This document shows positions 8,858-64,000 of a stretch of DNA of 64,000 nt, piece after piece; positions within the stretch are counted from its first letter, which is position 1, and every line of letters starts with the position of its first letter. The stretch is from Gautieria morchelliformis. Its lineage: Eukaryota > Basidiomycota > Agaricomycetes > Gomphales > Gomphaceae. The stretch covers positions 62,001-126,000 of the forward strand of contig WHVA01000057.1 of NCBI GenBank assembly GCA_015179125.1, written 5' to 3'. A program made the translations under genes and the position numbers. Under the pieces are notes generated by a model. It searched no databases. It saw only the letters and a program-made list of their open reading frames with translations, and was not told the origin of the DNA.

Positions 8858-8859
8858 GT

Positions 8860-8873: not shown

Positions 8874-8891
8874 GACCCGATAACTATCACT

Positions 8892-28300: not shown

Positions 28301-28740
28301 CCACACACCCTTCGCAGAAGCTTGCCCACCGCTACCTTGGGCCCTTCACAGTGATGCGGACGGTTGGACGGAATGCATACCGCCTCCGACTTCCGATGTC
28401 CATGTCCCGACTCCTTCCCGTCTTCAACGTGGTGAAGTTACTCCCTACGCTTGAGGACCCAATTCCAGGTCGGAAGGCTCGTCCGCCACCTCCACCGGAA
28501 ATTGTAGATGGGGAAGAGCACTATGTGGTGGAACAGATCCTGGACAGCCGGTTTGTGCAAGGACGACTCCAATTCCTTGTAAAATGGGAAGGGTATGGGT
28601 ATGAGGAGAATTCTGGGTCCCAGAGCAAGATGTTTCCACTCCAGACAAACTCCGTGAGTTCTATAGGACACACCCCGGTGCCCCTCGTCGAATCCGCTCG
28701 CTGGCATTTCAATCCCTTGTGTCCCATGCTTCGAGGACGC
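25332..28740 (+). pseudogene. pol: Gypsy-2 pol: RT, RNase H, integrase, chromodomain (nearly intact)
   Basis: One frame runs from 25332 to about 28090. It encodes protease end, linker, RT (..[18 protein letters not shown].. and VYLDDILIF), RNase H (..VEADSSDTATGAVLSQ.., ..TDHKNLEYF..), and integrase (HH-CC with CDLCLRTKAQRH; VDFIVELPESHGYD; SDRGPQFVAEL; YHPQGDGQTERVNQELEQ with the catalytic Glu). A frameshift near 28090 precedes the C-terminal integrase domain and ..VQGRLQFLVKWEGYGYEENS, a chromodomain that loses frame by one missing base near 28612. The solo LTR upstream separates this frame from its gag. Confidence 0.92.
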
Positions 28741-28761
28741 AGCACGCTAGAGGGGGGGTGA

Positions 28762-35200: not shown

Positions 35201-35572
35201 CAGAGCACACGTACAGGTTTTTCCCAAACAACGACCTGTGGGCCTGGGAACAGCAGGGAGCAGAGAGTGAAGGGGCCAACACGGCGCCCCCCCCAGGGTG
35301 ACCAGTATACAGGACGCCATGAGGCAGCAAACCCCGCCAGAGCCCACAAGTGATGTGCCACACATCCGCAGCCAGGGGCAAGGCAGAAGTAGGGGAAGAG
35401 GAGGAAACCCATCGTTAGGGCATAGGGACCAAGGGTGGTCCAGCCAGGACACAAGGCAGCGCAGATTAGATGACTTCGGCATAGGGGCCTGTCAAGCAGA
35501 GGACCAACAGGGGGATGAGGATGGCCAAAGCCCTTATTGTGGATGAATAACGAAACTCACGGGGGATAAACC

Positions 35573-36337
35573 TTGCGGATCAGACAACAGAACACTAACA
35601 AGTCCCTTATCGCAGTCACAGACTTACTGACAAAGTGCCCACCTGACAGGTACGGCATCATTGCCATACAAGAACCCTATATCGACTTTTTGGGAAACAC
35701 ACAAGCATCACCACACTGGCACGCAATATATCCGAACTTGCACTATCAGGACAAAGGCAAATGCACAAGAGATACTATACTAGTCAACAAGAGCATCGCC
35801 ACCAGCCCATGGACCATGATCAAGATGGGGTCACCAGATGTTACGGCGGTGAAGCTGAGCACAGATATGGGTGTAGTGCTCATTTACAGCGTCTATTGTG
35901 ACTGTACTAACTCTGACAGCATACATGACCTGCAAAAGCACATGCAGGACCAAGCGAAGGAGGGCCGGGCACAGCAGGAGAACATCGAAGGCGTTATATG
36001 GCTCGGCAACTTCAACCTACACCACCCCCTGTGGGACAAGGAGCGCAACGTCCACCTCTTTACCCAAAGCAACCTCGACGCCACTCAAACATTACTCGAA
36101 GCAACGGCAGAGCACAACCTACAAATGGCACTCTCCAGAGGCACACCTACATTGAGAGCTTTGTCCACAGGGAACCACACCAGAACCAATAATGTATTCA
36201 TGTCTACCATGCTATTCAAAAGGCTAACCACATGCTCAACAGTCCCAGAAAACATGCCGGCAAAGAGCAATCATTTCCCAGTGGACACGACGATCGACAT
36301 ATCTCTTGCGATTGTTGCCATCTCCCAAAAGCCAACT
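35573..36337 (+). pseudogene. LINE ORF2, endonuclease domain
   Basis: ..LRIRQQNTNKSLIAVTDLL.. starts the AP-endonuclease domain, with ..YGIIAIQEPYIDFLGNTQAS.. (catalytic Glu in IQEPY) and ..VIWLGNFNLHHPLWD.. (the family usually has GDFN; here Asn replaces Asp). The frame ends where a solo LTR begins. This domain nicks target DNA for reverse transcription. Confidence 0.8.
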
Positions 36338-37030
36338 TGTTACGACCGTTCATTTCTGACTTCCAACCCTCAGTTCCGCCACACCTCCCGCCCCTCCGAC
36401 ATTTCCGCAACACATTCCGCCCCTCCGATATTTCCGACATTCCGCCCCTTGTACATTTCCTTTGTTCTTTCGACTCTATTACTCGGACCCACCGGACCCA
36501 CCTTACCGTTCATCAAGACCATATGTCCGACCCTCCTTGTGTTTCGTTGTCAGATATGTTTTCCCGACCCCTTGTTCTTTGCCATTGTTCTACCTTACCC
36601 TGAACCCCCCTTGTAGTCCCATTGTTCCCAATAGTTAGTTCCCACGCATTGTCTACTCGACTTCCGCTTCCTCCGGAATTTGCTTAGTACCATATCATTA
36701 CCTGTTGTCTCAGCTCTTTGTATAAAAACCTGTCATGTATGTCTCTTATTCTGCAATCAGATAATCACCTTCAATACTTGATTTCCTTCGCTCCATCTCC
36801 TGTTCTTAGCACAGCGAGTCTAGCAAGATCTCAGTCTCTTTCAGTACTTTCGATCTTCCGTCTTCCGCCCCAGTTCCGACACAAGTTCCGACCAAACCTT
36901 TGGTTCAGTACTTTCCGACTTCTGACTCAGTTCTGAAATACTTAGGACGATAGTTCATTGGGGCGCAACCTATAAGTTGAAGCCGCTGTCCTTTCCAGTT
37001 CCGACTTAGCGGAAATCTCGATACGTAACA
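36338..37030 (+). repeat. solo LTR of the Gypsy-1 family in the LINE (TSD CAACT)
   Basis: 693 bp, TGTTACGACCG..ATACGTAACA, with CAACT at 36333-36337 and 37031-37035. Internal TATAAAA and TGCAATCAGATAATCACC are conserved. Confidence 0.93.
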
Positions 37031-39640
37031 CAACTACAGGGAGGTGGACTGGAAAGTCTTCAATGAAAGCCTGAAAGAACGCCTGCAGAGCAGCATTGCC
37101 AGCCCAATGCCAACAGACCAGCACAGCTTCCAACACCACCTCCAGGAGATAACCACCGCAATAGTGGAAACAGCAGAGGAGCTAGTACCCAAGACTAAGC
37201 CCTCTCCCTATATGAAAAGGTGGTGGTCACGAGAGCCAACTAGACTTAGGGCGAACACCAGGAGGGCAGGCAGGAAGGCATACATGTGCAGGGGGGATCC
37301 AGCGGACAGGGTGCACGAGGACTACAAAAATGCCAGGAACTGCCACGCTGACACTATAGAGAGCAACAAGAGGAAACATTGGGATGCCTTTCTGGAAGAG
37401 ATAGACGAGAAGACTGTCTGGATGGCACACAGGTATGCCTCAGCAGACGCAACTGATGGCAGGAGAACCAGAATCCCAACCCTCACCACGAAGCACAATG
37501 ACAGCTCCAAATGGGTGGCCGACACAAATGAGCAAAAGACGGAAATGCTTCTCAACACCTTTTTCCCAAAGTCCAGAGCCGCGGCAGACCATGCCCAAGT
37601 GAACCCTGACTATCCCCCACCCGCTTTCGAATATGAGCCGGTAACCGATGACCAGATCCAGCAAGCAGTAAGCAAGCTCAACCCTTTCAAGGCACTGGGG
37701 GCGAATGGCATCCCAAACATGGTCATAAAGCAGTGTATTGACGTATTGCTACCCTACCTAGAACCGCTGTACAGGGCCACATTCAGCCTCAACATATACC
37801 CTCAGGAATGGAGGGACTCAGTCACAAGAGTGCTGAGAAAGCCAGGGAAGGCTGATTATACGGTACCCAGAGCATATCGTCCCATAGCGCTCCTGGACAC
37901 TATAGGAAAAGTGCTGTCCACCTGCGTTGCAGAGGACCTGGTTGAAATGGCAGAAAAATACCAGCTCCTCCCCAATAACCATTTTGGATGCCACCCTGGC
38001 AGAACGACGACAGATGCAATTCACTACACGGTGGCTGTTGCAAAGCATGTGTGGAGGCGAGGCAAGGTCCTAGGTTTGCTATTTTTGGACATAAAGGGCA
38101 CGTTCCCAAGCATTATGCTGGACCAGCTAACGCACAATATGCGCCAGAGAGGTGTCCTTGAGGAGTACACCAGGTGGATCCGGAGGAGGGTTGAGGGAAG
38201 ACACACGGTCATCAGTTTCGACAACTACAGCACGCAGGCCTTGCCAGTTGAATGGAAAATGGATCAGGGTTGCCCAGTATCTGCCATAGCCTACCTTTTC
38301 TATAATGCTGACCTGCTCGAAATAATGCAATGGAGAAGAGGTGAAGGCTGTGTTGGTTTATGGATGACACTACCCTCATGGCTGAGGGAGCAGATTTCGA
38401 GGAGGCCTTCGGCAAGTTAGTGGACATGATGATGAGGCCTGGCGGAGCCAATAAGTGGGTCCATACACACCATTGCAATTTCGCCACAGAAAATTCGGTC
38501 TAATGGGCCTCATAAGACGGTAGGAGAGGGACACAGCCAGTGCCAGGAAGTCAAAGCCAGTTACAAGGCCAGCCATACAGATAGGCACACATCATATAGA
38601 GCCAGCTGCCACACACAAATTCCTGGGAGTGATCATAGACCAGGAGCTGCGCTTCAGAGAGCAGGTCAATCATGCACTCAAGAAAGGGGAGAGATATATC
38701 GCGCAGTACAGGAGGCTGGTAAAGCCAACGAAAGGGGTATCAGCTAAGTACATGCGAAGATACTACCTAGCAGTCACAATACCAAAAATGCTATACGCAG
38801 CTGATTTTTCCTGGTACCAGGTCCAGGCGCACGAAGGGGACCAAGGTCCCCATCAACAAGCTGGCATGAATACAGCAGCAAGCCGCACTTGCAATAACAG
38901 GGGCAATGAGAACAACGGCGAACGATGTCCTGGATGCACATGCAAACCTTTTTCCATTCCCGGTCCTAGTATCTAAGCTAACACACAGAGCCGAAGTCCG
39001 ACTAGCCTGCCTGCCCGATACCCACCCCTTGGCCCCTGACATACACAAAGCAGCCATATGGTACGTAAAAAGGCACCAAGCACCTCTTCACGAGATATTA
39101 CACGCTTTTGAGCTGCAGCTAGGGAACTTGGAAAAGATAAGGGCAGCAGTACACGGACCAAAATGGTCTCCTTCTTTCAAGATGCGAATTCTGCCGAACA
39201 AAGAGCAGGCTGCAAAGGAAAATGACGCAGAGACAGCAGACATCAAAGTTTTTACAGACGGGTCATTTATTGAAGGAGGAGTGGGGGCGGCAGCGGTCCT
39301 ATACAGGCAGGGCAAAGTCGAGCAGGTCGTGCGTCTGTACATGGGCACCAAGCACGAACACACGGTCTTTGAGGCTGAACTGGCAGGAGCAGCAATGGGT
39401 GCGAAGCTTCTCAATGCAGAAATGGGAAAAAAATATGTCATTGCTACTGACAGCCAAGCTGCAATACAGACCACATGATGTGACAAAGCCATCTCCGGGC
39501 AATACTTAGTCGAAGCACTGCACAGGCAAATCAAGGATGTAACGACCAAGCAGCCGGGCGCTGAGGTACTTATGCGATGGGTACTGGGACACGAGGGGAT
39601 AGAGGGAAACAAAAGGGACGACGCTGAAGCCAAGAGAGCA
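37031..39640 (+). pseudogene. LINE ORF2, reverse transcriptase and RNase H
   Basis: RT blocks: ..LNPFKALGANGIPNMVIKQC.., ..PRAYRPIALLDTIGKVLSTC.., ..LLFLDIKGTFPSIMLDQLTH.., ..WKMDQGCPVSAIAYLFYNAD... The FMDD active site (near 38358) falls out of frame by a one-base shift. RNase H near 39235-39640: VFTDGSFIEGGVGAA, ..TVFEAELAGAAMGA.., ..VIATDSQAAIQTT (premature TGA), WVLGHEGIEGNKRDD. Frameshifts and stops indicate loss of function. Confidence 0.85.
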
Positions 39641-49529: not shown

Positions 49530-51003
49530 ACTATGACATCAAAGAATTCTTCTGCCACCGCTAGAAACGTGACGGTAGGCAACGTAGATAAAAGCGTGGT
49601 CCTAACACCCCTCCCCGCCTGAGGCAGGTCACACCAAGGGCAGGGATTAACAGGCGGTACCTTCTCCTTCTCCAACACCGAGAATGCCACTGCGGACGTA
49701 ACAAATGATTTCCCCGAATCCCCCGATTATCAACCCTCACCTTAATACAGAGAATGCCACCGGTTTTGTGTGGCGTGGTTTCTTGCGCTCTGATCCAGCC
49801 TTGTATTCAGTGTGCATCGACTGCACCGATCTAGCAGACGCGGAGATAGTAGACGGGCATGCATGTCATCGAACATCTACAGACGTTGTGGTCAGTTTAT
49901 TCCCACTAAATCCAAGTCGTAGCTCATCGTGTGAGCAATCAGACCACTCTCTTCTCTAAGACCGACCTTCAAAATTCCGGTCACAAAATCACAATAACAA
50001 ACCTCGTAGATCCCAGATTTGGGGTGGCTAGTCAAATAACCGTCGATAGCTTTATTCTTGTTATACCAGCAGCGTCCTCATCTGTGGTCTCCGCGTCCAG
50101 TTCTTCACAGAGCGTACAGACTCTCACAGCATCCACAAGTCTGAGTAATACGTCCGCATCATCAAGTGTAGTGGTTGCTATGTCAAATGGAGGGTCCCCA
50201 ACCGCTGCAGCAGCATACTGGTCGAAATCACAATCAACTCCCGGGTTGTCAAAAGGTGGCATCGTCGGTGCAGTCTTTGCAGGCGCATTCGCCCTGCTAA
50301 GTGTTTTGGCATTTAGCTGGTGGCTCTTGAGGAGAAAGCATGTCTAAGGGAAATTGTCCAACCTCGCATGTGGAGAGAAGAAATCCGTTCCAGATCTAGA
50401 GTCACCGATGTCCACTACTCTCAAGTTGCCTCTGAACGAAGAGCAGCAGTCGGTAGTCAAAGCCCCTCTCCCATCGAAGGATTCGGGTCCAACTTCCGTC
50501 CCACGTACGTCGTTATTACTCAATTCAAACTTCTTTTTTCGAGTAACCTACACAATATGAAATATCCAGATCCTTCTAAAGCCCACCGCTCTAACCATAA
50601 TCCTAGGGCCCAGTCCCGGCGCACCGACAAACCCATTTCTTCTCGGAATCGTACCCCCAAACCTTCCCAGAAAAACACCTCCACGGCCCCTACCAAACCA
50701 CCAGTGGGGCATTATACCTGTCCGTTTCATCCCTTCAGAAGACATACCAGAGAAAGACGAGCAGCAGGCTAATGATGACTCAGACTTTGACTTCAACACA
50801 CCTTATCCGAGCTCAGAGCTTGGGACTTCGTCATTTATAATGACTGACTCCACCTTCACCTCGGTTACTCTCAACGACGATCATGTAGACAACAAGGCGC
50901 CAGCATCTGCTCTGGGCCTTGAAAAGTTGTCATCGAACCGTGCAAGCCCCGATTCAGCCCAGACACCGCCGTCGAGTATATCCCGAGGTTTGAGACGCAT
51001 ATA
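49530..51003 (+). CDS. single-pass membrane protein with extracellular beta-sandwich (exon structure unresolved)
   Basis: The central segment reads ..LFSKTDLQNSGHKITITNLV.., ..VASQITVDSFILVIP.., a Ser/Thr/Ala-rich stalk, then KGGIVGAVFAGAFALLSVLA and FSWWLLRRKH, a transmembrane helix with a basic stop-transfer. A cytoplasmic tail ..CGEKKSVPDLESPMSTTLKL.. through ..APASALGLEKLSSNRASPDS.. ends with a TAA near 51003. Upstream pieces (..TARNVTVGNVDKSVVLTPL.., ..GGTFSFSNTENATADVTNDF..) contain stops, so introns or decay must be invoked. Such proteins are abundant in Agaricomycetes and are thought to act as surface sensors or wall-linked receptors; the ligand is unknown. Confidence 0.55.
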
Positions 51004-51443
51004 AGAGAAACAAGTAATACTTCTCTCTCGCCTGCATGGTAGGGAATTGACTTAATTCGCATTCATTCCATTCTTGTGTGCCCACTTCCAATGGACCGAA
51101 CGCGGACTAGTGGCTGGCCTCCCACCTATTCACATAAATACCATCTTTATTTTCTGAACATTATGCAATGTATCGATTAACGGTATCGATTAACGTACAT
51201 GCTACTAGTTTGTATTACTGAACACAATCTTACCTCCCCTCTCCCGTAACGCTTGCCCCAGCTTAATTGATTTACCAAAAACAGCGAACAACTCAACATA
51301 AGCTCTCAGACGAGCAGAATATTCCTACGCTATGGCTGAGCAAGTCGCGGGAGATCAGTCTTCTATCATGATACGTCGAATTCCCAAAAAATAACATCAA
51401 GATAGTGCCGTATTACACATAGAATTAAGAAGCCTTGGGTCGG

Positions 51444-53612
51444 CTAGACTGTTCTACGGGTTCGCAGTGTAGGATGGATATGTGTTTGGTATCTCGTTCC
51501 TAGCCGGGAATGCTCATAAGGGGAGAGATGTTGTAGCCTGGCAGGTGCGGAGCGTTTTTGACTTGGCTCATCAGGAACCCCTTCCATATCGGCCGCCTTT
51601 CTCTTGGGGTGAATAGCTAAAACTGCCCCCGAGTCTGCCTCTGGAACAGGTGCAGCCCGCTGCGGTGCAACGACGTCAGCTTCCAGTTCAAGCTTCACTA
51701 TGGCATGCCTGAAATGTCCAATAAACTCCTGATAGTCGCGCTCGGGGTCCAGCGTCGGTCGATCAGAATTAGTTCGGCGCTGGAAAAAACCATGCAACTG
51801 CATGGCCATCTCTTGAAAGATCTGGCCGAACCAAGGCTGTATAGGGAGGTCGAAGTCATTCCGGATGTGTTCTGATTTTGTCGCCCCATCTTTGGAGTCC
51901 AGCTTCTTCAACTGTGGTGGGGTCTTCGTGACACGTGAGGTGCGGACGTCTCCAGGACCGTCGTATTCGCATATCAGCCAGCTCAGTACATAATAGAACG
52001 ACTCCAGATCGTCAAGATAGGAGTGGCTGCTTGCGTGCTTTTTTTGGAGAAGATTGCGTGACATGAATCTACGCGTGCCCTGAATCATAGGATGAATGAC
52101 GCTAGCGACATACAAGAGCTGGAAAATACAGACCACGGTCTTCGGGGCCGTGTCAAGTTTCTCCAGACGAACAGCGTAGTCGAGATCAATTAAGATGCCG
52201 CGATTGCCTTCTCCAGCCCCTTCGTCAGTATTGATCAGGATGTTGCCCATACTAACGTCCCGATGCAATATATTGGCTTTCTGGTATAAATTAAGATGAG
52301 CTTGAGAATAAAGTTAGCCTTTAAGGTTGGCTGGTGACTATATCACTTAATTCGTACCCTGAACAGCGTCATGAAAAGCTAACAGAAGCTCTCCGCGGGA
52401 CGAGAATTTCCAAATGGGTTTTCCATATGTATCCATGACAATCCTAGTGTGGACACGGTCTAGTACAGTGCTACCGTCAGTGAATGCCCCACCTCGCATG
52501 CGACGATTCTTAATTATTGTATCCTCAGAGCGCCCAGGTACCAAGATGCGTGCTTGATGGCGGATACGAACAAGACCACACGAAACACCCATATTCTGGG
52601 CATGAGTGATGAGGCTACCCTCCGTGTCGTTCTGCGTTTCTGAGGGTGCTATCCAGGCATCCTTGATTACGTACGTTTTGTGAGGCTCTTCGACAGAGTC
52701 AACCAGCCAACATCCGGTAGCGCGGCTCACGAACTTGGTGGCCTTGAAGAGTCGCGACTTGACTCGATACGATAGAGCACGCGGAGGGCCATCAGGACCG
52801 CATTCCATGGTCCAAATTCGCGGCTCCAGCCTGTCGTCAAGAACAAATGAAGTGTCAAATCCAGCTTTAACCTCGTCTAGGGAGGCAATCCCCGCTATTA
52901 CCGCGCAGAAGTCTACAGGTCGAGTATGATAGTCCAGTCGTGGAGCAACGACACACCCCGCAGGGTCGAACATAAATACTCTCATGTATGACTCTGTCAG
53001 GATCAGGGCATAAATATACCGGCGGTTGTCTTGTTGCTGAAAAATCTCGTTGGCGTGTACAGCGGACAGGTGGCGCTTTGTAAACCTATACTCGGATTCT
53101 AGCATGACTTGTATAGGAACCATTCCAGAGCAATATTCTGGTATTGGCTTTTCGGATTTATTGGAAATAAAAGCTGGACCAGCACCTGCTAGCATGAGAT
53201 CTGGATGCGGCAGAGGATCGCGTGATGCTTTCATATCTAGAGGCTTGAGAAACAGCCGCCTGGGGGGAGGAATACCTGACCGTTCAAGAATTGTGTTCAG
53301 TATATTCCTAAGGGGGGAAAGAAGATGGGCAGCCGATTGTGGTTTCGTCGTAATACGTTTCCACCTCTTTGCCGTCTCCCTATAGTGTGCCCCTTTGACA
53401 AGACGAGCACAAGCCCGTGTATGGGGCTGAACAGGGAAGTGTTTGTTGTAGAAGTTACTATCATCAACCCATGTGCCTTTCATCTTGCTTCTTAAGAATT
53501 TCCTATTTTTCGACCGTCCATTATCCTGTGGCTCAGGTGTACTTGATGGTTGTCGATGTCGATAGTTGATGCAAAGCGTTGGGTCATCTGTGATTGCATA
53601 CAGATACCACAC
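51444..53612 (-). CDS. FunK1-type fungal protein kinase
   Basis: Minus strand. The main exon from 53612 to about 52360 begins ..WYLYAITDDPTLCINYRHRQ.. and ends ..GELLLAFHDAVQ; the true start may lie further upstream. A short intron follows, then LNLYQKANILHRDVSMGNIL (catalytic loop HRDVSMGN, the FunK1 variant of HRDxxxxN) and GILIDLDYAVRLEK (DLD in place of DFG). Next come GTRRFMSRNLLQKKHASSHS and YLDDLESFYYVLSWL. The C-terminus ..HPKRKAADMEGVPDEPSQKR.. is basic and ends at 51444. A 54-nt segment (GTCTGT..ATTCAG) between TVV and GTRRF could be a frame-preserving intron. FunK1 kinases are expanded in mushrooms; targets are unknown. Confidence 0.88.
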
Positions 53613-53759
53613 GGAACAGAGATCACCAGAGACTCACCACGAAACCGTTCCGGGTTTATCACGAGATCCATGCTGAACGATATCATTGAACACCAGCGAC
53701 TTACATAAATCATGATAAATGAGGCGATTCTAAAACCAACTCACTCGATGCGGCCAAGG

Positions 53760-55461
53760 AAAGATGAAGGAACCTAGGCAATGAGATGGCGGCTGTGGCT
53801 TGACCGGTAATCCTTTACCATTGCGTTGAACAAAAAAACAATTGGCAGTAGATGCCTAATTCCCTCATCGTAAGCAGCAATCGTGACTGTAACGTGAGTC
53901 ACGCAGTGGAGCATGTGCAGCTGGAAAGATTTAGGTTCGGCACAAGACCCATCTCCGACTCAAATTTCACGCTCCGAGAGCATGCCGAACCTAGGAAAGA
54001 TTCGTGCCACCACTATCGAGCCTGAGGCACAATAATCGTATGTACTAGGGCACCTCCATGGCCGTCACGTGAAGCAGTGCCAAGGGATAGGGAGACCCAA
54101 CTAACTGGTTGAACTCCTCTGAGGGATGTGAGCTTTCCAACTGCTTACTGTGCTTGCCGTCCGCCTGTCTTGATATCAGCCTATTTCCAAGTTGCACTTC
54201 TGTCTAAATGCCGGATCCTCACACAGCATTATGATAGTCGTATTTTTTGTCAAGCATTTGTGTGACGCATCACGCGGTACAATCGGTACGCGACAAACAC
54301 TGCTTATCCACAGCTTTCATCGCTGAATTCTACCACGTCTCCTATACACACCCGCACTTAGTACGTTGAATAACTACACATATACGTCCCAGGACCAACA
54401 TAGTACTAGAAAAACGCGTAGATATGTCGTATGACGCGTCCGGCAACGACGAGCGGGGTCACAGGTCTTATCAGGAGCTGCTGTGCAAAAAGAGGACCCC
54501 GACCGGTTGAAGGAAGAACACAGCGCTCAGGTGAGCATGTATTGATGTGTTGCCTTTGCAGAGACAAACAATGCTACAGAGGGTTGTCGTCCATGCCATG
54601 AATCTTGCAGCAGCTCCCGTGGGGAATTGACATCGACCAGCTGAAGACATCTGCCACTGGCACTTGATCCTGTGTCCATGTGTGCATTATGTTCCGGCAT
54701 TCTCAACTGTATGACGCGCAGGTTGGTGGGGCTTGTTTACCTACCCATGTGCAAACTCCAATGTATGCGTAAGTGCTATGGTATGAAACACATAGCTTTG
54801 AGATGGATCTACAATGGACCCTTTATCATCCCATCTTGTTTGCATCTACTTGTGCTGCGTTTCTCAGCACAGACGTATGTGCAGCGTATCTTGCAGAAAT
54901 GGGCTCATTGCAGGTGTACATAGAGATATGCACCGTGGAGTTGGGTGGTCATCCATGCCTCAGTGCTCGCAGCCAAGCTTGCATCGTCGCGAGTCCCGCT
55001 CTTCATCATTTCTGGTATATTTACATACAGGTATAGTGTGCTTGTGAACACATTGACTGTGAGCACTGACTGTGAGTGGGATTGAACTGGGCGTCGATGT
55101 CGTCCGATCTCGCACTGTCAGAGGACGATGTCTGTGTCAATTTGGTCACCGGACCTGTTCTGGCCAGCTCGTACTGATATTACGGTGTGGATTTTCAATC
55201 GTCACGCGTCAGACGCGGCCTCTCTCACATCAGATTCAAACTCATTCTCATGAAGCAGCTCCGTGTTTATGTAAAAAAGTTAGCTACACGTTGGATGCCC
55301 ATACTTAGTTCTCTAGAGTTCTCACTGTGCCGGACGCACTGGTACAGGCTCGAATATAACAGCTACAGGTGTCTTACGAGTGACGATTGGTTCCTATCAG
55401 CCCGCCCTTCGAGCTGAGCCGGCAAGCCAGAGCTTCTGGAGCAGCCGAGGTATCTGGGTGG
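53760..55461. other. no gene recognised, left flank of the virus-like block
   Basis: Apart from a short inverted repeat at 53932-53993, I see only small open frames (for example 54672-55047) that lack family-like sequence. No transposon terminus is obvious at the junction with the inverted-repeat arm at 55462. Confidence 0.45.
53932..53993. repeat. 11-bp inverted repeat
   Basis: TAGGTTCGGCA (53932-53942) and TGCCGAACCTA (53983-53993) are perfect reverse complements with a 40-nt loop, each next to GGAAAGATT. It could be the end pair of a small element or a chance hairpin. Confidence 0.6.
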
Positions 55462-55655
55462 GTAGCCAGGAAGGGAGGGCAGACAACGTATGTCAACGTG
55501 AAGTTCTCCGATCGCCGCGTACGCAAGGGATGGAACTCTCTCGCCGTATTCGACACATCCTCGGGAGAGACACCGAATCCTTCCATGAACGTGGAGATGA
55601 TCTCAAGGTGCATTGCAGGTATCATCAGCGAAGGTCCATGATGGCAGTACTCCAC
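55374..55655 (-). pseudogene. gene B-left: truncated duplicate of gene B
   Basis: Minus strand of the left arm repeats the first ~64 codons of gene B (..MIPAMHLEIISTFMEGFGVS..PPFLA) and then runs into unrelated sequence (HPDTSAAPEALACRLSSKGG) ending at a stop near 55374. The codon that is ATG in gene B (58086) is GTG here because of the transition at 55655. A non-functional by-product of the inverted duplication. Confidence 0.6.
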
Positions 55656-56121
55656 TTCGTCTCTCGAGTCTTCCCGTGTGTCCTTCCTCCTCTCTGCTCG
55701 TCCCTCGGATCCACGCTGCATCCTTGCCGACTTGATGCGCAGGTACGTCGTATCTTCCTCGTGTCTACGCAAATGCATGTGTGTGTGTATACCATTGCAG
55801 CAGCGCTGATCACGGTCACTATTGCTGTCCAGGTATGTCGACTACGCGCACAGACAAGAGTTCATCCGCAGGTGCACAGTTCGCAGAGAGTCCCTCGCTC
55901 AACGCATCCACGGGACATATCAAGCTCGTGGGCACCGTCGGGAAGGAGAAGACCTACACACCGCAGCAGGGACAGGAGGAGAGGCCGTACATCCCTATAG
56001 ACCTCACAGTGTCCTGGGAGAAGGACGGGAAGACGTACACAAAGGAAGGGAACGACGTGTATGTGCAGTTTCGTGCGTGCAGATACGTCCCTGGGAGCAC
56101 AAAGGACCATGCAGCCGTATC
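55462..56121 (+). repeat. left arm of a 660-bp inverted repeat
   Basis: Base-by-base comparison with the reverse complement of 57620-58279 gives 653 of 660 identical, no indels. The seven differences (left-arm positions 55491, 55517, 55655, 55891, 55911, 56053, 56076) are all transitions, five of them at CpG sites. The arm contains the start of gene A on the plus strand and, on the minus strand, the start of gene B. Confidence 0.97.
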
Positions 56122-57112
56122 TGGCTTCTCGCGTGCAGCACGAAGGAAGTCTGCGGAGTTAACCTTGTCTGGCATGTTCGCACACTACGGTCTGGTCAGT
56201 GTAGTCATGCGAGCACCTCGCTGTACCTCACCAATTGTACTCGGCATGAGCATCATTAGCGACACCCCCGAAGGCTTGCAGTTCGATGACCAGAGCGACT
56301 ATGTACTGCAGGAACCACGCAAGGGACCAGGGAAGTCACATACAGACAGGTCTCTCCTCTCTCCTCTCCCTGGAGGGGAGAAGAGTCGCCGCACGTCCAG
56401 TATTGCTTCGGGGAGGAGTAGGGTGAGCTCCCGTAGTGCTATGTCGAGTATTGCCCCAGGACCAAAGCTGACCAGGACTGCACCGTCGAGTGTGTCGGGA
56501 AGGTCATCGAAGGCGGCAATGACCGTGGAGGAACCTAGCGATACAAGCAGCGATGATACTAGACACACCGTACGTACAAGGACACGTGCTCTGCCTAGCA
56601 TCATAGACAGTGTCGCGTACGAAGGATCTGAGAACTCCCCTGACATGATCTCGAGACTCTTCGCACTGACGACCGTTCGCGAGGTGTTCGTTGGGTACCT
56701 GAAGTTCTCGTCTCCCATGCATGCGTATGCGTATCTCGTGCTCAGTGCATGCGGCAAGATGGAACTACTCGACAGATTGACGGACGTATCCCCAGACGAC
56801 GTGCTCTCTGTGCTGCACAACCTCACCGAAGGAGACGTGAGAGTACCAAGCGACAGGGGAGGGAGTGGAATACGCCTGCTGGTGGACCTTGCACATGCGA
56901 TGATCGAGTCCAACCCAGAGAGTGCTGCATCTGCGCTCCTGAACACGATACCAAAGAGGATACGGTACACATGCGCCAACGGGTACTTCGGTACAGGTCC
57001 TGACGGTACGGGGACCAATGCATATGGGATCGCATTGCAGATTGCTCGAGGGTCTCAGATCATGATGCGCAACGTGTCCTCGTTCACGTACCATGGGATA
57101 GTCACCAAGTGA
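55835..57112 (+). CDS. gene A-left: possible chimeric virus-like protein
   Basis: 425 codons from ATG 55835. The first ~95 residues (MSTTRTDKSSSAGAQFAESP.., ..EERPYIPIDLTVSWEKDGKT.., ..VPGSTKDHAAVS) are shared with A-right through the inverted repeat. After position 56121 the protein is unrelated: ..MFAHYGLVSVVMRAPRCTSP.., a Ser/Arg-rich linker (..SSIASGRSRVSSRSAMSSIA..) and a helical C-terminal half ..EVFVGYLKFSSPMHAYAYLV.., ..IRLLVDLAHAMIESNPESAA... The exact switch at the arm end suggests a fusion created by the duplication. The C-terminal half may originally have been another gene. Function unknown. Confidence 0.55.
   Translation: MSTTRTDKSSSAGAQFAESPSLNASTGHIKLVGTVGKEKTYTPQQGQEERPYIPIDLTVSWEKDGKTYTKEGNDVYVQFRACRYVPGSTKDHAAVSGFSRAARRKSAELTLSGMFAHYGLVSVVMRAPRCTSPIVLGMSIISDTPEGLQFDDQSDYVLQEPRKGPGKSHTDRSLLSPLPGGEKSRRTSSIASGRSRVSSRSAMSSIAPGPKLTRTAPSSVSGRSSKAAMTVEEPSDTSSDDTRHTVRTRTRALPSIIDSVAYEGSENSPDMISRLFALTTVREVFVGYLKFSSPMHAYAYLVLSACGKMELLDRLTDVSPDDVLSVLHNLTEGDVRVPSDRGGSGIRLLVDLAHAMIESNPESAASALLNTIPKRIRYTCANGYFGTGPDGTGTNAYGIALQIARGSQIMMRNVSSFTYHGIVTK
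56345..56380. repeat. palindromic pyrimidine/purine hairpin inside gene A-left
   Basis: CTCTCCTCTCTCCTCTCCC-TGG-AGGGGAGAAGAG forms an imperfect hairpin within the coding sequence (peptide SLLSPLPGGEKS). Similar hairpins lie near 57146-57255, 59221-59256 and 60770-60852. Confidence 0.5.
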
Positions 57113-57145
57113 TGTGCTATGCAGTCTCCAAGTCCGTGATATACT

Positions 57146-57214
57146 CGATCTGCTCTCCCTCGTGGGTCTTTCCCTCTTCTCCTCCGTATGCAAAAATTTT
57201 TGTGTATCTCAAGG

Positions 57215-57255
<41 letters not shown>
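57146..57255. terminator. large hairpin between convergent genes, with (GA)n tract
   Basis: CTCTCCCTC..TATGCAAAAA / TTTTTGTGTATC..AAGGGAGGGAGAGAGAG pairs as a long imperfect hairpin. Its apex CAAAAATTTTTG (57192-57203) is a perfect palindrome. It lies between the 3' ends of A-left (57112) and A-right (57256), where a transcript-ending hairpin would act on both strands. The GA run spans about 57220-57251. Terminator function is inferred. Confidence 0.45.
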
Positions 57256-57256
<1 letters not shown>

Positions 57257-57906
57257 CAGATGGACACAGAGCGCATGACATCCGCGAGATCCTTGGGTGT
57301 GTGGCTAGTCACGTCAGGAACGTCATGCTTTCGGACTCCCAGGACACAGATGGACTTCACGGAGATGTTGATCGTCTTCTTGGAGGGTGACTTGGTGAAC
57401 GAGAGATCCATAGTACCGCAGAGGACCTCCCCGTCGCCGAGTTTACTGAACTGCTCCTTCAGAGTACTGCCCTTGACGTCCTTTTTCGAGACTACACTCA
57501 CCTCCGTGTCCTGCTTCATGTACATCTTCAAGGTGTACCAGTCGTCGGCTACCTTGACGGACTCATCGAATGACAACCCCGTGGACTTCGCGAGGGACGA
57601 CATCTTCGAACCGTCCAACGATACGGCTGCATGGTCCTTTGTGCTCCCAGGGACGTATCTGCACACACGAAACTGCACATACACGTCATTCCCTTCCTTT
57701 GTGTACGTCTTCCCGTCCTTCTCCCAGGACACTGTGAGGTCTATAGGGATGTACGGCCTCTCCTCCTGTCCCTGCTGCGGTGTGTAGGTCTTCTCCTTCC
57801 CGACGGTGCCCACGAGCTTGATATGTCCCATGGATGCGTTGAGCGAGGGGCTCTCTGCGAACTGTGCACCTGCGGATGAACTCTTGTCTGTGCGCGTAGT
57901 CGACAT
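57256..57906 (-). CDS. gene A-right: unknown virus-like protein
   Basis: 216 aa from the minus-strand ATG at 57906. The N-terminal half is shared with A-left; the C-terminal half is its own: ..LAKSTGLSFDESVKVADDWY.., TLKMYMKQDTEVSVVSKKDV, ..LSFTKSPSKKTINISVKSIC... It is beta-rich, highly charged, without signal peptide or membrane segment. The alternation of strands and charged loops would suit a small nucleic-acid-binding (OB-like) protein, but this is a guess. It faces gene B across 179 nt. Confidence 0.6.
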
Positions 57907-58279
57907 ACCTGGACAGCAATAGTGACCGTGATCAGCGCTGCTGCAATGGTATACACACACACATGCATTTGCGTAGACACGAGGAAGATACGACGTACCT
58001 GCGCATCAAGTCGGCAAGGATGCAGCGTGGATCCGAGGGACGAGCAGAGAGGAGGAAGGACACACGGGAAGACTCGAGAGACGAAATGGAGTACTGCCAT
58101 CATGGACCTTCGCTGATGATACCTGCAATGCACCTTGAGATCATCTCCACGTTCATGGAAGGATTCGGTGTCTCTCCCGAGGATGTGTCGAATACGGCGA
58201 GAGAGTTCCATCCCTTGCGTACGTGGCGATCGGAGAACTTCACGTTGACGTACGTTGTCTGCCCTCCCTTCCTGGCTAC
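57620..58279 (-). repeat. right arm of the 660-bp inverted repeat
   Basis: Reverse complement of 55462-56121 with seven transitions. The arms are separated by 1498 bp. This arm lies within two frames that both continue past its ends (gene A-right and gene B), so it is probably the source copy. Confidence 0.97.
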
Positions 58280-58862
58280 ATCGACGTACACGGCAAAGAA
58301 CGTCCCTAACCTGATGGACTGCCTAGAGGAGGGAAAGGAGATGGTCATCGCTAGAGCTCCCCCCGATATGTACCTCACGAAACCGAAGCTGCACAGAACG
58401 AAGGTGCAGGTACAAGGCCGTCTTGCTCTCGAGGTCGTCGACTATGCTGCAGAGTACATACCTGACCTACAGGGAAGTGTCACCTTTGTGAACCTAACGA
58501 GTGCCGTGATCTTCTTCCTCCTCTGCGAAAGGGGAAAGGACGTCGAGGTACTTGTCCCATCCTCAGTGACTTGCAGCAATCTCGCAGACCACATCGGATA
58601 TGGGTACTCCGTCGAACGATGCACGGGAGACACCCTCATGAAGTTGCGTCGCAAGTCAACCGAGGCAAGGAGCGTTACACCCCTGGAGCTTCGAAAGAGA
58701 GGGAGGGTATGCTACAGAGGCAGCATGGACAATGCACAGGACGTGACTACGCATTTTAACGATGCCGTACTGCTCTCATGCACTAGATCTCCCTCTGCTT
58801 TCCTTGAGACGCTGAGTATTGTACATCCCCAAGGAGGGGCATCAGATCTGTCATTCGTCTGA
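58086..58862 (+). CDS. gene B: unknown virus-like protein
   Basis: 258 aa from ATG 58086 (an upstream in-frame stretch begins at 57963, but the divergent arrangement favours the later start). ..MIPAMHLEIISTFMEGFGVS.., ..FTLTYVVCPPFLATSTYTAK.., ..GKEMVIARAPPDMYLTKPKL.., ..GSVTFVNLTSAVIFFLLCER... Mixed alpha/beta, with one hydrophobic strand that is too short to be a clear membrane helix. No family recognised. Its last 80 bases overlap the 3' end of gene D on the other strand, a degree of packing unusual for host genes here. Confidence 0.6.
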   Translation: MEYCHHGPSLMIPAMHLEIISTFMEGFGVSPEDVSNTAREFHPLRTWRSENFTLTYVVCPPFLATSTYTAKNVPNLMDCLEEGKEMVIARAPPDMYLTKPKLHRTKVQVQGRLALEVVDYAAEYIPDLQGSVTFVNLTSAVIFFLLCERGKDVEVLVPSSVTCSNLADHIGYGYSVERCTGDTLMKLRRKSTEARSVTPLELRKRGRVCYRGSMDNAQDVTTHFNDAVLLSCTRSPSAFLETLSIVHPQGGASDLSFV

Positions 58863-59457
58863 CACGCGAGACCAGGACACTGCTACACAGCATAGGAGAC
58901 ACGTCCATGAGGTATGCATCCCTGAGAGTGTCATGCGACCTGTCAAACTCCTCGGCTGCCATCCGTGTACTGTCACTCTGCAGTATTGGTTCGCTCACTA
59001 GGGATACACGTCCCAGATACGTAAAAAGACCCTCCTTCGTGCGCTTGTCCGATGCCTTTGCGAATGCACTAACGATGGTCTTCCTGTCTGCTGTGGCGCA
59101 TGCAAGGACAGCGTGCCATAGAGCTCCCACGTACTCGTCGGATACATCGAAGTTTCGCGAGCAGAAGTCGTAGTCTCTCGTGGCTAGCATACACACAGCA
59201 TTGTCGTAGTTGCTTGCCGTGCCCTTCCTTCCCTCTCCCCTTCCTCGAGGAGAGTAGTATCGCCTGTCGAATGCTGTCTGCTTCTCTGCGAGGGATACCG
59301 ACATATCGCGCATCACGGACAGGCGCACATCCACGAACCTGTCGTCCTTTCGAGGGAGGGAAGACGTGGTGCTGAACCTTGCCACACGCGTGCCTCGTTT
59401 GAGTACTCCTTCGATGTGCAGTCTCAGTGAGTTGACGTAAGAGTCGGCTGCAGACAT
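58783..59457 (-). CDS. gene D: unknown virus-like protein
   Basis: 224 aa. MSAADSYVNSLRLHIEGVLK.., ..RFVDVRLSVMRDMSVSLAEK.., a basic SPRGRGEGRKG segment encoded by a palindromic hairpin, then ..YVGALWHAVLACATADRKTI.. and ..VSPMLCSSVLVSRVRRMTDL... Mostly helical, no recognised domain. It starts 27 nt after the end of the capping-enzyme gene on the same strand, so the two could share a transcript. Confidence 0.6.
   Translation of the reverse strand: MSAADSYVNSLRLHIEGVLKRGTRVARFSTTSSLPRKDDRFVDVRLSVMRDMSVSLAEKQTAFDRRYYSPRGRGEGRKGTASNYDNAVCMLATRDYDFCSRNFDVSDEYVGALWHAVLACATADRKTIVSAFAKASDKRTKEGLFTYLGRVSLVSEPILQSDSTRMAAEEFDRSHDTLRDAYLMDVSPMLCSSVLVSRVRRMTDLMPLLGDVQYSASQGKQREI
59221..59256. repeat. 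palindromic hairpin inside gene D
   Basis: CCCTCTCCCCTT-CCTCGAGG-AGAG has a perfect CCTCGAGG centre. It encodes the basic SPRGRGEGRKG segment and looks like an in-frame insertion of the same hairpin type found between genes. Confidence 0.5.
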
Positions 59458-59484
59458 GGTTTTCGAAGGAGCATGCTCTGAGGT

Positions 59485-60608
59485 CTATCGAATGGTCACA
59501 GATCTGCTATGCACAAGTACCACATGCGATATCACGTGCAGTGCGGTATCGTCTCCCACTGACTCTGTGGACTCGACATCATGTGCGCGTACTGTCCTGA
59601 GTCTGTCATGTATGTCGCTCGTGACCAAGGCATGTTCGGTGTACTCGGGGTCCCTGCCCCACTGGACTGTGGCATCTGTACTGGTCGTCCTCTGCATACG
59701 TATACCTGCCACGTTCAGGAGCATACCGCTAGAGTCTGCCGAGTCGTACACGTATCCACACGAGAGTACCGGAATGCCCTGCCTCGAGAGCTCTGAGATA
59801 TCCTTGTACACGTGCGACAGGGAGAAGATGGCTACTGCACATGCACATCGAGTCGTTAGCTTGTTCTCTCTCAGGATCCGTACAACGTGAGATGCCGTAG
59901 CACAGAGGACCACGACTCTCCTTGCTCTCGTGGATGCGGCACTGAATGCGTCTAGTACCTTGTTGCTGTTGTAGTACGACCCCTTTCCGTTCGTGCGCTG
60001 ACTCAACCTCAAGCACTTCGATGGGTCTGGTTCCACGGCGAGTATCCTTGCGTTGTCCCCTAGGTGTTCGTACTCCGACGAGTGGTGTCCGTCTCCTGCC
60101 CCGAGATCCAGTACTACCTTGCCCGTGTCGCTGATCGATCTGACGATGCCGTAGATGCGTCTCTGGAGCAGTGTACACGAACGCGAGAACGTACCACGTC
60201 GTCGGACATGTGAGCTGCCAAGGACGACCTGTATATGTTGGTACACGCCTCCATGCTGTTTGCATTCTCCTTGTCGTCCCTCCTGAAGATGTCTACGATC
60301 GTCGCAGTACCGTCCGTGCACCTGAAACGCACCTCGAGTATGTCTCCCTTGAGGTACGGAAGTCTTCCCTTCAGGGAGATGATGGTGTTGCCCTCGAAGG
60401 ATGACATGCCGAGGTTCCCGTCGTACATGAGCTCCATGGATCTTGTGTCCTTGATCTTCAGGGTCTCGTCCCTCCTCGTGGACAATGCCAAGACGCCATC
60501 GCATGCAAACCCGCATGTTCCCGCATACTCGTACGCATCCTTCTCTCTCTCGAAGGAACTGAGGTTTGCGTCGTTCACGAAGGGCAACTCCGAGAGCAGT
60601 GTGACCAT
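59485..60608 (-). pseudogene. gene C: viral-type mRNA capping enzyme (guanylyltransferase C-terminal half plus methyltransferase), broken
   Basis: Minus strand. The first frame (60608 to about 60180) has ..GFACDGVLAL.. (like nucleotidyltransferase motif IV), ..ETLKIKDTRSMELM.. (like motif V), YLKGDILEVRF (OB-fold strand) and FRRDDKENANS, matching guanylyltransferase motif VI (R-x-D-K-x-x-x-N). After a one-step frameshift near 60170-60190 the next frame gives KVVLDLGAGDGHHSSEY (SAM motif I), ILAVEPDPSKCLRL and ..WGRDPEYTEHALVTSDI.., a cap guanine-N7 methyltransferase-like domain ending at 59485. The adenylated/guanylated Lys motif (KxDG) and any triphosphatase domain are absent upstream, so the gene is also 5'-truncated. 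The domain order matches capping enzymes of large DNA viruses; the host enzymes are separate proteins. Confidence 0.65.
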
Positions 60609-60769
60609 GTACGAGGTTCGCGGAAGTCCGAAGAAGCGCTACATCGTTGCAGGACTGAACGAGGGATGCAAGAGACCACCTCGAGTTGTTCGCAGTGTCC
60701 CTCGTTGGGATGGTACCACGGAGCAGCGATGCAAACGTCCTCTAGGTCTGCCACACATCCATTCCATTC

Positions 60770-60852
60770 CCTCTCCTCCCCTGTGCAAAAATTTTGTGCA
60801 TGGGAAGACACATGGAGGATCACCTGATCATCTTCCCCTCGAGGGAGGGATG
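60770..60852. terminator. hairpin with CAAAATTTTG apex and CCCTCGAGGG palindrome
   Basis: CCCTCTCCTCCCCTGTGCAA-AAATTTTGTGCATGGGAAG pairs imperfectly around CAAAATTTTG, and TTCCCCTCGAGGGAGGG follows with a perfect CCCTCGAGGG. Same design as 57146-57255. It marks the right end of the recognisable virus-like block. Confidence 0.4.
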
Positions 60853-60860
60853 CAGACCGT

Positions 60861-62452
60861 ACATGTATGCGAGTACATCTGTGCATATGCGACGACCATC
60901 TCTGCGTGCCAAGGTTCGTGACATCAACCATTCCCGTGCGCTGTTCGTGCAGAAGCAACCGTTTTTGACGCTGATCAGATTGTGGGTGCTGCGGAAGACC
61001 CCGAGGATATGCAGTCTATTCTATTCTAACTATATGAAACGCGCAGGTCGAGGGAGAAGATGTTCGTGGACTGCGTGAGCGAGCTCGCCGCGCTGTCAGA
61101 TGTCGTGCTGGCGGCAGCGGCCACCGTCGCGCTCGCGAGCACGTTGAAAAACCTGCCTCCGCCCGCCCCGCCTGCGGGTACTTGCTCACGCCAGGATAAC
61201 GGTGCGGCTGAACGGCATGTCGTCATCGACGGAGGCGGGAAAACGGAGCGGCTGAGCGGCATGGCAGAAAGTGGCAGAGAAGCAAAAATTACCTGGAATG
61301 CGGAAAGGTAACGCCATGATTTCCAGGATGGTTTGGGTGATACTACGAATCTGTAGTTACAAAAATGTTTTGAATTGACTGAAAGTTTCTCAACTGATTT
61401 TTCATCCTTCCGCCCATACTCTCCAAATCCCAATACCTCGCGTGGTCATTGACAGCCGAAGACGAAGTCAAGGAAATCGCCCATTTAGTAAAAGCAGCTC
61501 GGCGCATGTGGTGAAACGAGGAGCCATGCTTATCGTTTATGTGCAGATGCTGAGAACATCAATCACCGCTACTCTAAGTAAAAGCGGGGCGAGATCTCTT
61601 TCCTCATGATTTGAGCCCGGCCTACAACCAGTTCAAGACGCACATGGTACTTAATCACGAGGACCGCCAGTACTTGACATGATTCTATTACGTAATACAA
61701 TTACTCACCTCGTTACTGGCGACTTTATAGTCTGCAGATCTAGATGAGTCGAACCCATGCTGCCATGCGTAAGCCCTGGATAAAGCTGATTCAGTTTGGA
61801 GGCCATCTTTTACTCGATATTCCGCCATCATCAAACTTTGCATCAGAATGCTTATCACAAGTAACCCAGTTTGGTAAGCACTCCGCGCTCACCGAGACTT
61901 TGATGGAACGATATTTGTAATGTTCATCTGACCACAAGGTTGACGTTCTATGGAGTTTCCACTAATTCAACTACTCGGTCACACGACTAACACAATAACG
62001 TCGACCGAGGCCTCTCAACGTACTGCATGGTATGACCATCTAATATCTCCATGCAGGTCTTACTATCTCACACATGCACAACTCTTGCATGATCTATACG
62101 TATGCTTGGCTCCACGTTTAACGGCGAGCGCTTAAAAATACTACTGGAAGCTAGACAGCTGCTATAGCGACCCTGCATGACCAAAAGCCTTAGTACACGC
62201 TATCTCATGCTCGCTTCGCTTGTCGCCCCCAAATGGTCTAATTCTATTGGGCGTGCCCACTTCCGGCAATGAGGTGCACGGAATATCCGGAAGTACACTA
62301 TTCATCGATGGTTCATGGAAACAGAAGACACCGTTTCTTCCACAAGGGCGGTAATCCATATGCATCGTCTCCAGAAACCAGCGAGGACCATGATAGCTTC
62401 TTATCTGCATCCTTGTGCATTGACTTCGAGCCACATGCACCCCAATATCCCG
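60861..62452. other. no gene recognised
   Basis: A GC-rich stretch at 61058-61300 is open on both strands (plus MFVDCVSELAALSDVVLAAA; minus with Ala/Ser-rich sequence) but neither reads like a known protein, and it may be a relic. 61440-62450 shows nothing convincing. Confidence 0.4.
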
Positions 62453-62459
62453 TATAAAT
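62453..62459 (+). promoter_or_regulatory. TATA box of the S53 protease gene
   Basis: TATAAAT, 70 nt before the ATG at 62523. Confidence 0.55.
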
Positions 62460-62522
62460 TCTGGCCCATACCTGACCCATACACAGTGTGGTCGAAGCCC
62501 CTCCCCTGTCTAAGTTGAAGAT

Positions 62523-64000
62523 ATGGTCCTCACTAGTCTTGTCGTTGCCTCTCTCGTCACGCTCGCGTGCGCAGGTCCTGTGGCACAAAACCTTGTCGTA
62601 CACGAACAAATCAACAGTGCTCCTAATGGCTTCCTCCATACAGGTCCCGCTTCGGACTCCACAGTCCTGAATTTACGTATCGCACTCGTGTCTAGTGACA
62701 TGGCAGGACTTGAGAAGGCGCTATACGACGTGTCGACCCCATCGAGTAGCTTGTATGGACAACACCTGAGCAAGGCAGACGTATGTTACATGTAGCTCAT
62801 TCTCTGGTCTTCAGAAATGCTCATCGTTTTCAGGTCGAGGCTTTCGTGGCACCCAAGCCTGAGACTGTCTCCGCTGTGAATGGCTGGATTAACGCCAATG
62901 GGCTCAGCGCGACAACAATCTCACCAGCAGGGGATTGGTTGGCCCTGTCTATTCCCGTGTCCAAGGCAAACAGCCTCCTGGGTGCCCAGTTTTCGTTCTT
63001 CACGGAGCAGGCTACTGGCAAGGAGTCTGTCCATACACTTTCATACTCCATCCCGGCGTCTCTCAAGGGCCATATCGAGCTGATCCATCCCACCACAAGG
63101 CACGAATCAATCTGACATATCCTGGATCTATAACTCACGACTCGTTTAGCTTCGCCTCAAGCCATTCCGTGCCAAAGTTCTCGACACCCACTATCGTACC
63201 CCCCAGAAACGTGACGTCAAGCCTCGCTGTTCCTTCCTCGTGCGCCAGTGTTGTCACGCCTGCATGTCGTATGTGCTTCTCTATCTTCCGTATGGTAATG
63301 CAATGTTGAACATGTTACTCGACGCAGTTCAAGCCCTGTACGGTATCCCTACTACTCAGGCCACCCAAAGCTCAAATGCCCTTGGCGTGTCTGGATTCAT
63401 TGACCAATTCGCCCAAACTGCTGATCTCAAGGTTCATAACTGCATTATTACCTCCACATAATTAGAGCTAAAAAGCGACGTGTAGCAATTCCTCCGAACA
63501 CTTCGGCCGGATCTTCCTCAGTCCACCACTTTCGCTCTAAAGACTCTTGATGGAGGTTCAAACCCTCAGGGCGCCCAAAACGCTGGCGACGAAGCTGTGG
63601 GTCCTCTTTGATGGTTCGTATTGTATATGAGCCCTAATCTTTTGGCAGAACTTGGACATCCAATACACCGTAGGTGTGGCTTCTGGTGTTCCGGTTACTT
63701 TCATCTCTGTGGGAGACAACTTCCGAGACGGTGACCTCGAAGGCTTTTTGGATATCATCAACGCTTTGCTTGCGGAGAGTTCGCCACCTCAAGTGTTGAC
63801 CACCAGCTATGGTAGGAATTCGCTTGGTCTCGGTGCAAACTGAGTCTTTATTGCTGTTGATCAGGTAATAATGAGGATGAAATCTCGCCAAACTTGGCCA
63901 TGTGCGTCTCCAGATGAAGCGTCATCTAGGAGGACCAAGTTGGTGCTGACCGTATCTATTCAGGAACTTGTGCAACGCCTACATGCAACTTGGTGCCCGG
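62523..64000 (+). CDS. S53 peptidase (sedolisin), secreted, 3' end outside the window
   Basis: The start MVLTSLVVASLVTLACAGPV is a signal peptide. Propeptide (pro-kumamolisin): ..STVLNLRIALVSSDMAGLEK.., ..VSTPSSSLYGQHLSKADVEA, ..GDWLALSIPVSKANSLLGAQ... Mature enzyme: PACLQALYGIPTTQATQSSN, ..TLDGGSNPQGAQNAGDEANL.. with the catalytic Glu and Asp of E-x-x-x-D in DEANLDIQY, then ..VLTTSYGNNEDEISPNLA.. and NLCNAYMQLGA at the right edge; the catalytic Ser lies beyond. Introns of about 50-60 nt, for example 62781-62833 and one ending at 63328. The join near 63105-63160 is uncertain and may use a GC donor. These are acid extracellular tripeptidyl-/endo-peptidases of wood-decay fungi. Confidence 0.92.

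Follow-up and report, generated by a model that had tools for sequence, protein, structure and literature searches.

A 64,000-nucleotide stretch of the Gautieria morchelliformis genome (C637:62001-126000, on a 336-kb contig of 336,524 bases; hereafter the window) carries a broken gene for a fused mRNA capping enzyme, in which guanylyltransferase motifs are followed by an S-adenosylmethionine (SAM) methyltransferase. The case is strong that this gene is what remains of the capping enzyme of a DNA virus or of a virus-like replicon, a virus being the likelier of the two. With a probability of about two in three, we interpret it as part of an endogenised, decayed genome fragment from a DNA virus of Agaricomycetes, as yet undescribed, that transcribed outside the host RNA polymerase II (Pol II) pathway. 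A preliminary description of this DNA had read the gene as left behind in a basidiomycete by a DNA virus or virus-like element; the host does belong to the basidiomycete order Gomphales, and the proposed origin fits the profile match, the relatives and the past selection presented below. Beyond that description, we find that this genome holds such fragments at 21 or more places, that they come from at least two lineages, and that uninterrupted relatives have a TFIIS-like zinc ribbon at the N-terminus.

The window carries a truncated and frameshifted capping gene

Two open frames on the minus strand of the window carry the halves of the gene, as the preliminary description had held (Table 1). 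The motif VI sequence FRRDDKENANS lies at 60255-60287 and the SAM motif VVLDLGAGDG at 60088-60117, in a different frame. In the first of these frames, CDGVLAL (60483-60503) and LKIK (60450-60461) occupy the positions of motifs IV and V, and both, like FRRDDKENAN, align with proteins from metagenomes.

We built a profile solely from four such metagenome proteins (P0003, P0004, P0006 and P0007; 691-707 amino acids, aa), with the window sequence excluded. Against the six-frame translation of the 64 kb, it matched the guanylyltransferase frame with E = 5.8e-27 and the methyltransferase frame with E = 1.1e-48; the next best match had E = 9.5, and the best among the controls (the reversed window and five mononucleotide shuffles) had E = 5.5. 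We take this match as the decisive test, at the level of sequence, of the identity of the gene. Pfam models by themselves gave weak matches under their curated cut-offs (guanylyltransferase frame: LEF-4, E = 0.0047; mRNA_cap_C, E = 0.16; methyltransferase frame: Methyltransf_25, E = 0.0052), with Pox_MCEL not reported. Generic methyltransferase families are the sole family matches of the methyltransferase part in Pfam-type scans, and its putative cap-N7 specificity is taken solely from its position within the protein.

Profile positions 1-330 of 684, which hold the zinc ribbon, the middle domain and motif I, were not found within the window, and the motif I lysine (KxDG) is accordingly absent from this copy. 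The two matched parts of the profile overlap on contiguous DNA in different frames, which places a small indel near 60200 between them and leaves no room for an intron. The gene is thus both 5′-truncated and frameshifted, as had been claimed. The annotators' model P0001 was discarded as a guide to the protein, since the SAM motif is absent from it; P0001 and P0002 (GenBank models JB92DRAFT_3110796 and JB92DRAFT_3269484) seem to splice across the breaks into orphan open reading frames (ORFs).

Uninterrupted relatives add a TFIIS-like ribbon to the capping enzyme

Place C608 in the genome holds a 497-aa open frame (L046:314-1804). As a query (residues 24-430), it retrieved P0003 (692 aa, 47% identity), P0004 (691 aa, 30%) and its own gene model. 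A profile search, which scored the best 7,999 candidates by common words, a list outside which P0004 fell, added P0006 (693 aa, 29%) and P0007 (707 aa, 28%). All four relatives are uninterrupted proteins on metagenome contigs and share one domain order: a TFIIS-like zinc ribbon, a middle domain of about 180 aa with little conservation, the guanylyltransferase motifs KxDGER, DxE, DG, KxK and RxxKxxAN, and a DxGxGxG methyltransferase. KxDGER is present in each of them and reads KIDGER in the C608 copy. The fusion of guanylyltransferase and methyltransferase, put forward in the preliminary description, is thus borne out by single chains in all four, and at place C342 one frame spans both parts.

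The Pfam TFIIS zinc ribbon matches the N-terminus of every relative (P0004, E = 7.3e-5; P0006, 3.5e-4; P0007, 0.026; P0003, 0.027), above the Pfam cut-off in P0004 alone. In the ribbon, the second pair of cysteines does not vary. Both cysteines of the first pair are present in P0006 and the C608 copy, one in P0003 and in P0007, and none in P0004; predicted protein starts may account for those missing. TFIIS acts on multisubunit RNA polymerase, and for this reason the ribbon would be expected to bind such a polymerase. We know of no other fusion of a TFIIS ribbon with a capping guanylyltransferase and methyltransferase, and the literature matches listed included no report of the family or of a TFIIS-capping fusion.

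Judged by its matches, this is a family without named members. Below their cut-offs, LEF-4 matched P0003 (E = 0.012) as well as the window frame, and mRNA_cap_C (PF03919), a family that covers cellular and viral enzymes, matched C342 (E = 0.023) and P0003 (E = 0.046) as well as the window. PF01331 and PF03291, which we take to be the capping-enzyme families of fungal hosts, were not among the matches of the frames tested (E up to 10 for the window, 1 for the others). Sequence searches of the PDB with the capping frames and the profile returned the RPA12 ribbon, generic methyltransferases and unrelated chains, with no capping enzyme among them, and a scan of prokaryote genomes with P0004 returned no relative.

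Capping fragments are dispersed through the genome

A search of the G. morchelliformis genome yielded 23 matches at E ≤ 1, comprising the window, two second pieces of places already counted and 20 other places, among which C943 is doubtful (E = 0.65) and C849 weak (E = 0.0019). A second search added C608, for a total beyond the window of 20 further places and one doubtful place; these counts are lower bounds. Every one of the 13 places compared matches the independent profile (C608, C342, C160:428k, C152, C149, C160:508k, C891, C145, C537, C671, C460, C323 and C131), and none is full length (C608 covers profile positions 3-398, and C342 323-588). The remaining eight (C492, C155, C130, C611, C249, C762, C849 and C943) were recovered by the own-genome search only. 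C47 and C337, fetched for other ORFs, had no capping match with the profile.

Part of this copy number reflects duplication within the genome. C149 and C160:508k are copies of each other (91%), and C537 and C891 belong to a 98% duplication over 7.9 kb. At C671, C460, C323 and C131 (L012-L015), a dispersed repeat that is 95-97% identical bears a methyltransferase piece (profile positions 600-631 in C671 and 600-645 in the other three); this piece is a fragment amplified within the repeat. Eight more places match over the same methyltransferase residues in the own-genome search. Close behind the truncated capping gene at C608 lies a spacerless 1,115-base palindrome (L046:1784-2898) with 99.4% identity.

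Copies diverged while the gene was functional and fall into at least two probable lineages

Between the window and C149 (151 codons), differences at codon positions 1/2/3 number 22/17/53, and the ratio of nonsynonymous to synonymous substitution rates (dN/dS) is 0.16; it is 0.18 against C145, 0.23 against C160:508k and 0.14 against C537. C342 and C608 differ at 13/11/37 positions, with dS saturated, and C342 gives a dN/dS of 0.11 against C152 (58 codons) and 0.13 against C160:428k (43 codons). The pairs window/C342 and window/C152 were left out because they are too diverged for dS. Ratios of 0.14-0.23 for the window pairs and 0.11-0.13 for the C342 pairs imply that those lineages split while the gene worked. 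The window lineage and the others, on this codon evidence, diverged under purifying selection and then decayed. Closer pairs have higher ratios (C149/C160:508k, 0.37; C149/C537, 0.40; C537/C891, 0.31; C537/C145, 0.48; C152/C160:428k, 0.78), a pattern to be expected where some of the divergence postdates decay.

A tree of 11 rows, with three of its eight forks open and several long branches, places the window, C149, C160:508k and C537 in one clade (100/100). C342, C152 and C160:428k group instead with the metagenome protein P0003 (83/96). Read this way, the two separate clades imply at least two donors, which suggests repeated infection of the Gautieria lineage by DNA viruses or virus-like elements not yet described.

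The capping gene lies in a compact block of orphan ORFs

The gene is part of a compact block of about 5.5 kb (55462-60913; 55% GC) filled with orphan ORFs (Table 1). Across the six frames, the block holds eight stop-free stretches of at least 200 aa (overlapping ones counted), compared with two or fewer in 200 dinucleotide shuffles.

Table 1. Coordinates of features in the block and at its right edge, numbered by position in the window
Feature	Position	Strand	Remarks
Guanylyltransferase fragment, motifs IV, V and VI	60168..60554	-	Open frame 60117-60638, Met at 60608; positions 331-461 of 684 in the four-protein metagenome profile
SAM methyltransferase part, same gene, other frame	59512..60222	-	Open frame 59488-60741; metagenome profile positions 446-682 of 684
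ORF C, orphan	58786..59457	-	First Met 27 bases beyond the capping-frame stop, same strand; no family match
ORF B, orphan	57900..58859	+	Stop-free frame without a fixed start; overlaps ORF C in convergent orientation; no family above cut-off
ORF A, orphan	57259..57906	-	Residues 148-194 match C337 (51%)
ORF F, orphan	56207..57109	+	First 162 codons recur on C47 (82% aa)
ORF E start	56125..56175	-	Cut at the inverted-repeat junction; continued by a 325-aa open frame on C47 (L040:5267-6241)
Inverted repeat, left arm	55462..56121		660 bases, 7 mismatches
Inverted repeat, right arm	57620..58279		660 bases, 7 mismatches
AT-rich palindromic motif	57189..57202		Lies where ORFs F and A converge, between their stops
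AT-rich palindromic motif, second copy	60784..60796		
Short repeats, right edge (inferred)	60914..61007		Counterparts on C287 (for 60914-60963) and at six other places (for 60966-61007)

At C149 and C160:508k, too, the methyltransferase is followed by the start of ORF C (tblastn, 78% over 37 aa and 54% over 41 aa). These two places are mutual copies, so the order of capping gene and ORF C amounts to one independent comparison; the order, shared with that one other lineage, argues that the pieces are left over from an ordered genome. On C47, ORF F and the first part of ORF E are found together again (93% over 534 bases), with ORF F differences of 8/9/16 by codon position. C47 (L040:4793-9120) holds a second element, whose orphan ORFs measure 325, 585 and 349 aa. 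By eye, the 585-aa ORF has a nucleotidyltransferase-like stretch, and its relatives stand beside the methyltransferase at C149, C160:508k, C537 and C891; a scan of IMG/VR with it, which reaches close relatives only, returned none.

The mismatches between the inverted-repeat arms are all transitions, five of the seven at CpG, although the sites are few. Together with the palindrome at C608, the inverted repeat suggests that ends were joined head to head. Junctions of this kind arise in linear genomes with hairpin ends, but repair at integration could also create them. The AT-rich palindrome follows the pattern TGCAAAAATTTT. The window has two matches to it where 0.01 would be expected, but the pattern was picked once both copies had been seen; a weaker version is present on C47. 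It may be a terminator.

The left edge of the block is set at the outer end of a repeat arm, and beyond both edges lie ORFs that we take to be kinase-like and peptidase-like. These flanking ORFs, the genomic repeats at 60914-61007 and the copies within duplications and repeats support residence in the chromosome. No Rfam family was found in 50000-64000. Elsewhere in the window, 8856-14027, 25319-28761 and 35570-39478 hold large retroelement ORFs, by eye two with Ty3-like pol and integrase stretches and one resembling a long interspersed nuclear element.

Comparison with known capping systems

The Nucleocytoviricota capping enzymes include poxvirus D1, asfarvirus NP868R and mimivirus R382. The Gautieria-type family resembles them in having the guanylyltransferase before the SAM methyltransferase in one chain, in the order of its motifs and in its putative large-DNA-virus context. 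It showed no sequence match to them, Pox_MCEL going unreported and none of them being listed in the PDB searches, and it differs in its N-terminal ribbon and in its shorter length of about 690 aa. The fused architecture, which the preliminary description linked to nucleocytoplasmic large DNA viruses and linear plasmids, fits the evidence; the nearest relatives found, though, are metagenome proteins without a name, and none is from recognised Nucleocytoviricota or linear plasmids. By analogy, the enzyme would work like the poxvirus or asfarvirus type; we do not file it in Nucleocytoviricota, as no search for hallmark genes (capsid, PolB, A32 ATPase, VLTF3, D5) was made.

In baculoviruses (Naldaviricetes), LEF-4 and LEF-5 are two distinct proteins, the former lacking a methyltransferase. 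Besides the LEF-4 matches given above, which the other three metagenome relatives do not share, the C-terminal ribbon of LEF-5 matches the C608 copy (E = 0.028).

An endogenous double-stranded DNA virus capping gene in a mycorrhizal fungus is also described within the giant endogenous viral region of Rhizophagus irregularis (PMC10640383). That region is one continuous 1.5 Mb with PolB, RNA polymerase subunits and VLTF3, in an arbuscular mycorrhizal host (PMC10640383), whereas the pieces in the basidiomycete Gautieria are dispersed, of kilobase size and from an unplaced family. In African swine fever virus, an extension of RPB7 has been proposed as the dock for the capping enzyme (PMC10881513); here, the tie to the polymerase would be the TFIIS-like ribbon within the capping enzyme itself.

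Alternative origins of the capping gene

The alternative that survives best, though we consider it unlikely, is that the gene came from a cytoplasmic replicon without a capsid, the basidiomycete equivalent of yeast linear plasmids, which have their own capping enzyme and RNA polymerase. ORF3 of the yeast plasmid pGKL2, likewise from a fungal host, has triphosphatase and guanylyltransferase activity (PMC6211774), the gene order in the window block is compact and partly convergent, and no capsid gene was seen, though none was searched for. The yeast elements are, however, more than 75% A/T (PMC4431711), compared with 55% GC in the block; they are stated to be known from Saccharomycetales only (PMC10328495); and their RNA polymerase is described as lacking the TFIIS-binding rim helices (PMC6211774), whereas the capping family here has a TFIIS-like ribbon. 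By its base composition, and by the published host range and polymerase features, the block is not a yeast-type linear plasmid as defined. Searching a plasmid collection with P0003 gave no match, which counts for little, as the collection is presumably mostly bacterial.

A decayed host or transposon gene, encoding a lineage-specific fungal protein, is improbable. The dispersal of the fragments, the common repeat with its methyltransferase piece at four of the four places compared for it and the C537/C891 duplication would all suit such an origin, yet repeat spread accounts for copy number and not for origin. Nor did any tested frame match the host families, PF03919 alone being reported, weakly. 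The relatives are intact proteins from metagenome contigs, one of which (P0003) joins one Gautieria lineage in the tree to the exclusion of the other.

We give still less credence to an assembly chimera or contamination, in which a virus contig was wrongly joined to fungal DNA, given that the fragments occupy many contigs and partly lie within repeats and duplications, that neither the window copy nor any of the 13 compared fragments is whole, in contrast to the metagenome relatives, and that the few differences between the inverted-repeat arms are those that deamination of methylated chromosomal DNA would yield. Least credible is an RNA-virus capping enzyme copied into DNA, since TFIIS ribbons act on DNA-dependent multisubunit RNA polymerases, no RNA-dependent RNA polymerase family matched the tested frames and the viral KxDG-type guanylyltransferases are, to our knowledge, those of DNA viruses.

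Several observations weigh against an endogenised DNA virus. No named virus appeared among the protein matches of the window, C608 and profile queries; IMG/VR scans with P0003, P0004, P0006 and P0007, which as single-protein scans reach close relatives only, returned no relative for any of the four; and the plasmid result above and a phage collection searched with P0006 were equally negative. As a protein query, the methyltransferase frame of the window found its own annotated model alone among 952 candidates. No DNA polymerase or packaging gene, any more than a capsid gene, was seen linked to the capping gene, though these families were not searched for, and the linked ORFs are orphans, with nothing above cut-off in Pfam, NCBIfam and PHROGs. 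Within the enzyme, the middle domain of the relatives has, by eye, no clear ExE pair of a tunnel-type triphosphatase; the methyltransferase lacks what we take to be the KGGDL-like signature of cap-N7 enzymes; and LEF-4 matched none of P0004, P0006, P0007 and the C608 and C342 frames. The tree program also warned that long-branch joins, including that of the window clade, are possibly false. Finally, an RNA polymerase search (PF00562) of the genome found host-like genes and a separate, broken Rpb2-like gene on C148, whose presence could itself count in favour of a virus but which is not linked to capping fragments; its loci have 34-39% GC, compared with 55% in the block, so the two need not come from one virus.

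This Rpb2-like gene (L056:664-2070 and L049:1300-2109; about 58.7-60.4 kb) is divergent relative to Pol II, its best PDB match scoring 137 bits, and may be a second, AT-rich endogenous viral element; its frame returned no relative from IMG/VR, where close relatives only were within reach. On C371 (L057:2120-3371), two orphan ORFs of similar style stand beside a broken Pol II Rpb2-like piece.

A proposed life and decay of the element

Returning to the endogenised DNA virus, a fuller version of it seems to us slightly better than an even bet: a hitherto undescribed cytoplasmic DNA virus family of Agaricomycetes, whose single chain of TFIIS ribbon, guanylyltransferase and methyltransferase would couple polymerase rescue to capping, and which left fossils of at least two lineages in Gautieria. 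The chain of about 690 aa, with its ribbon, middle domain, guanylyltransferase and SAM methyltransferase, would be mounted on an RNA polymerase encoded by the virus and would cap transcripts as they emerge. Fragments of two or more genomes of this kind would then have been integrated into the host, rearranged by inversion and palindrome formation, copied through host duplication and repeat amplification, and finally broken. Uninterrupted metagenome relatives, together with repeated endogenisation in a mycorrhizal basidiomycete, offer a concrete starting point in the search for such a virus, and the fusion of domains suggests that transcript cleavage and capping are physically linked.
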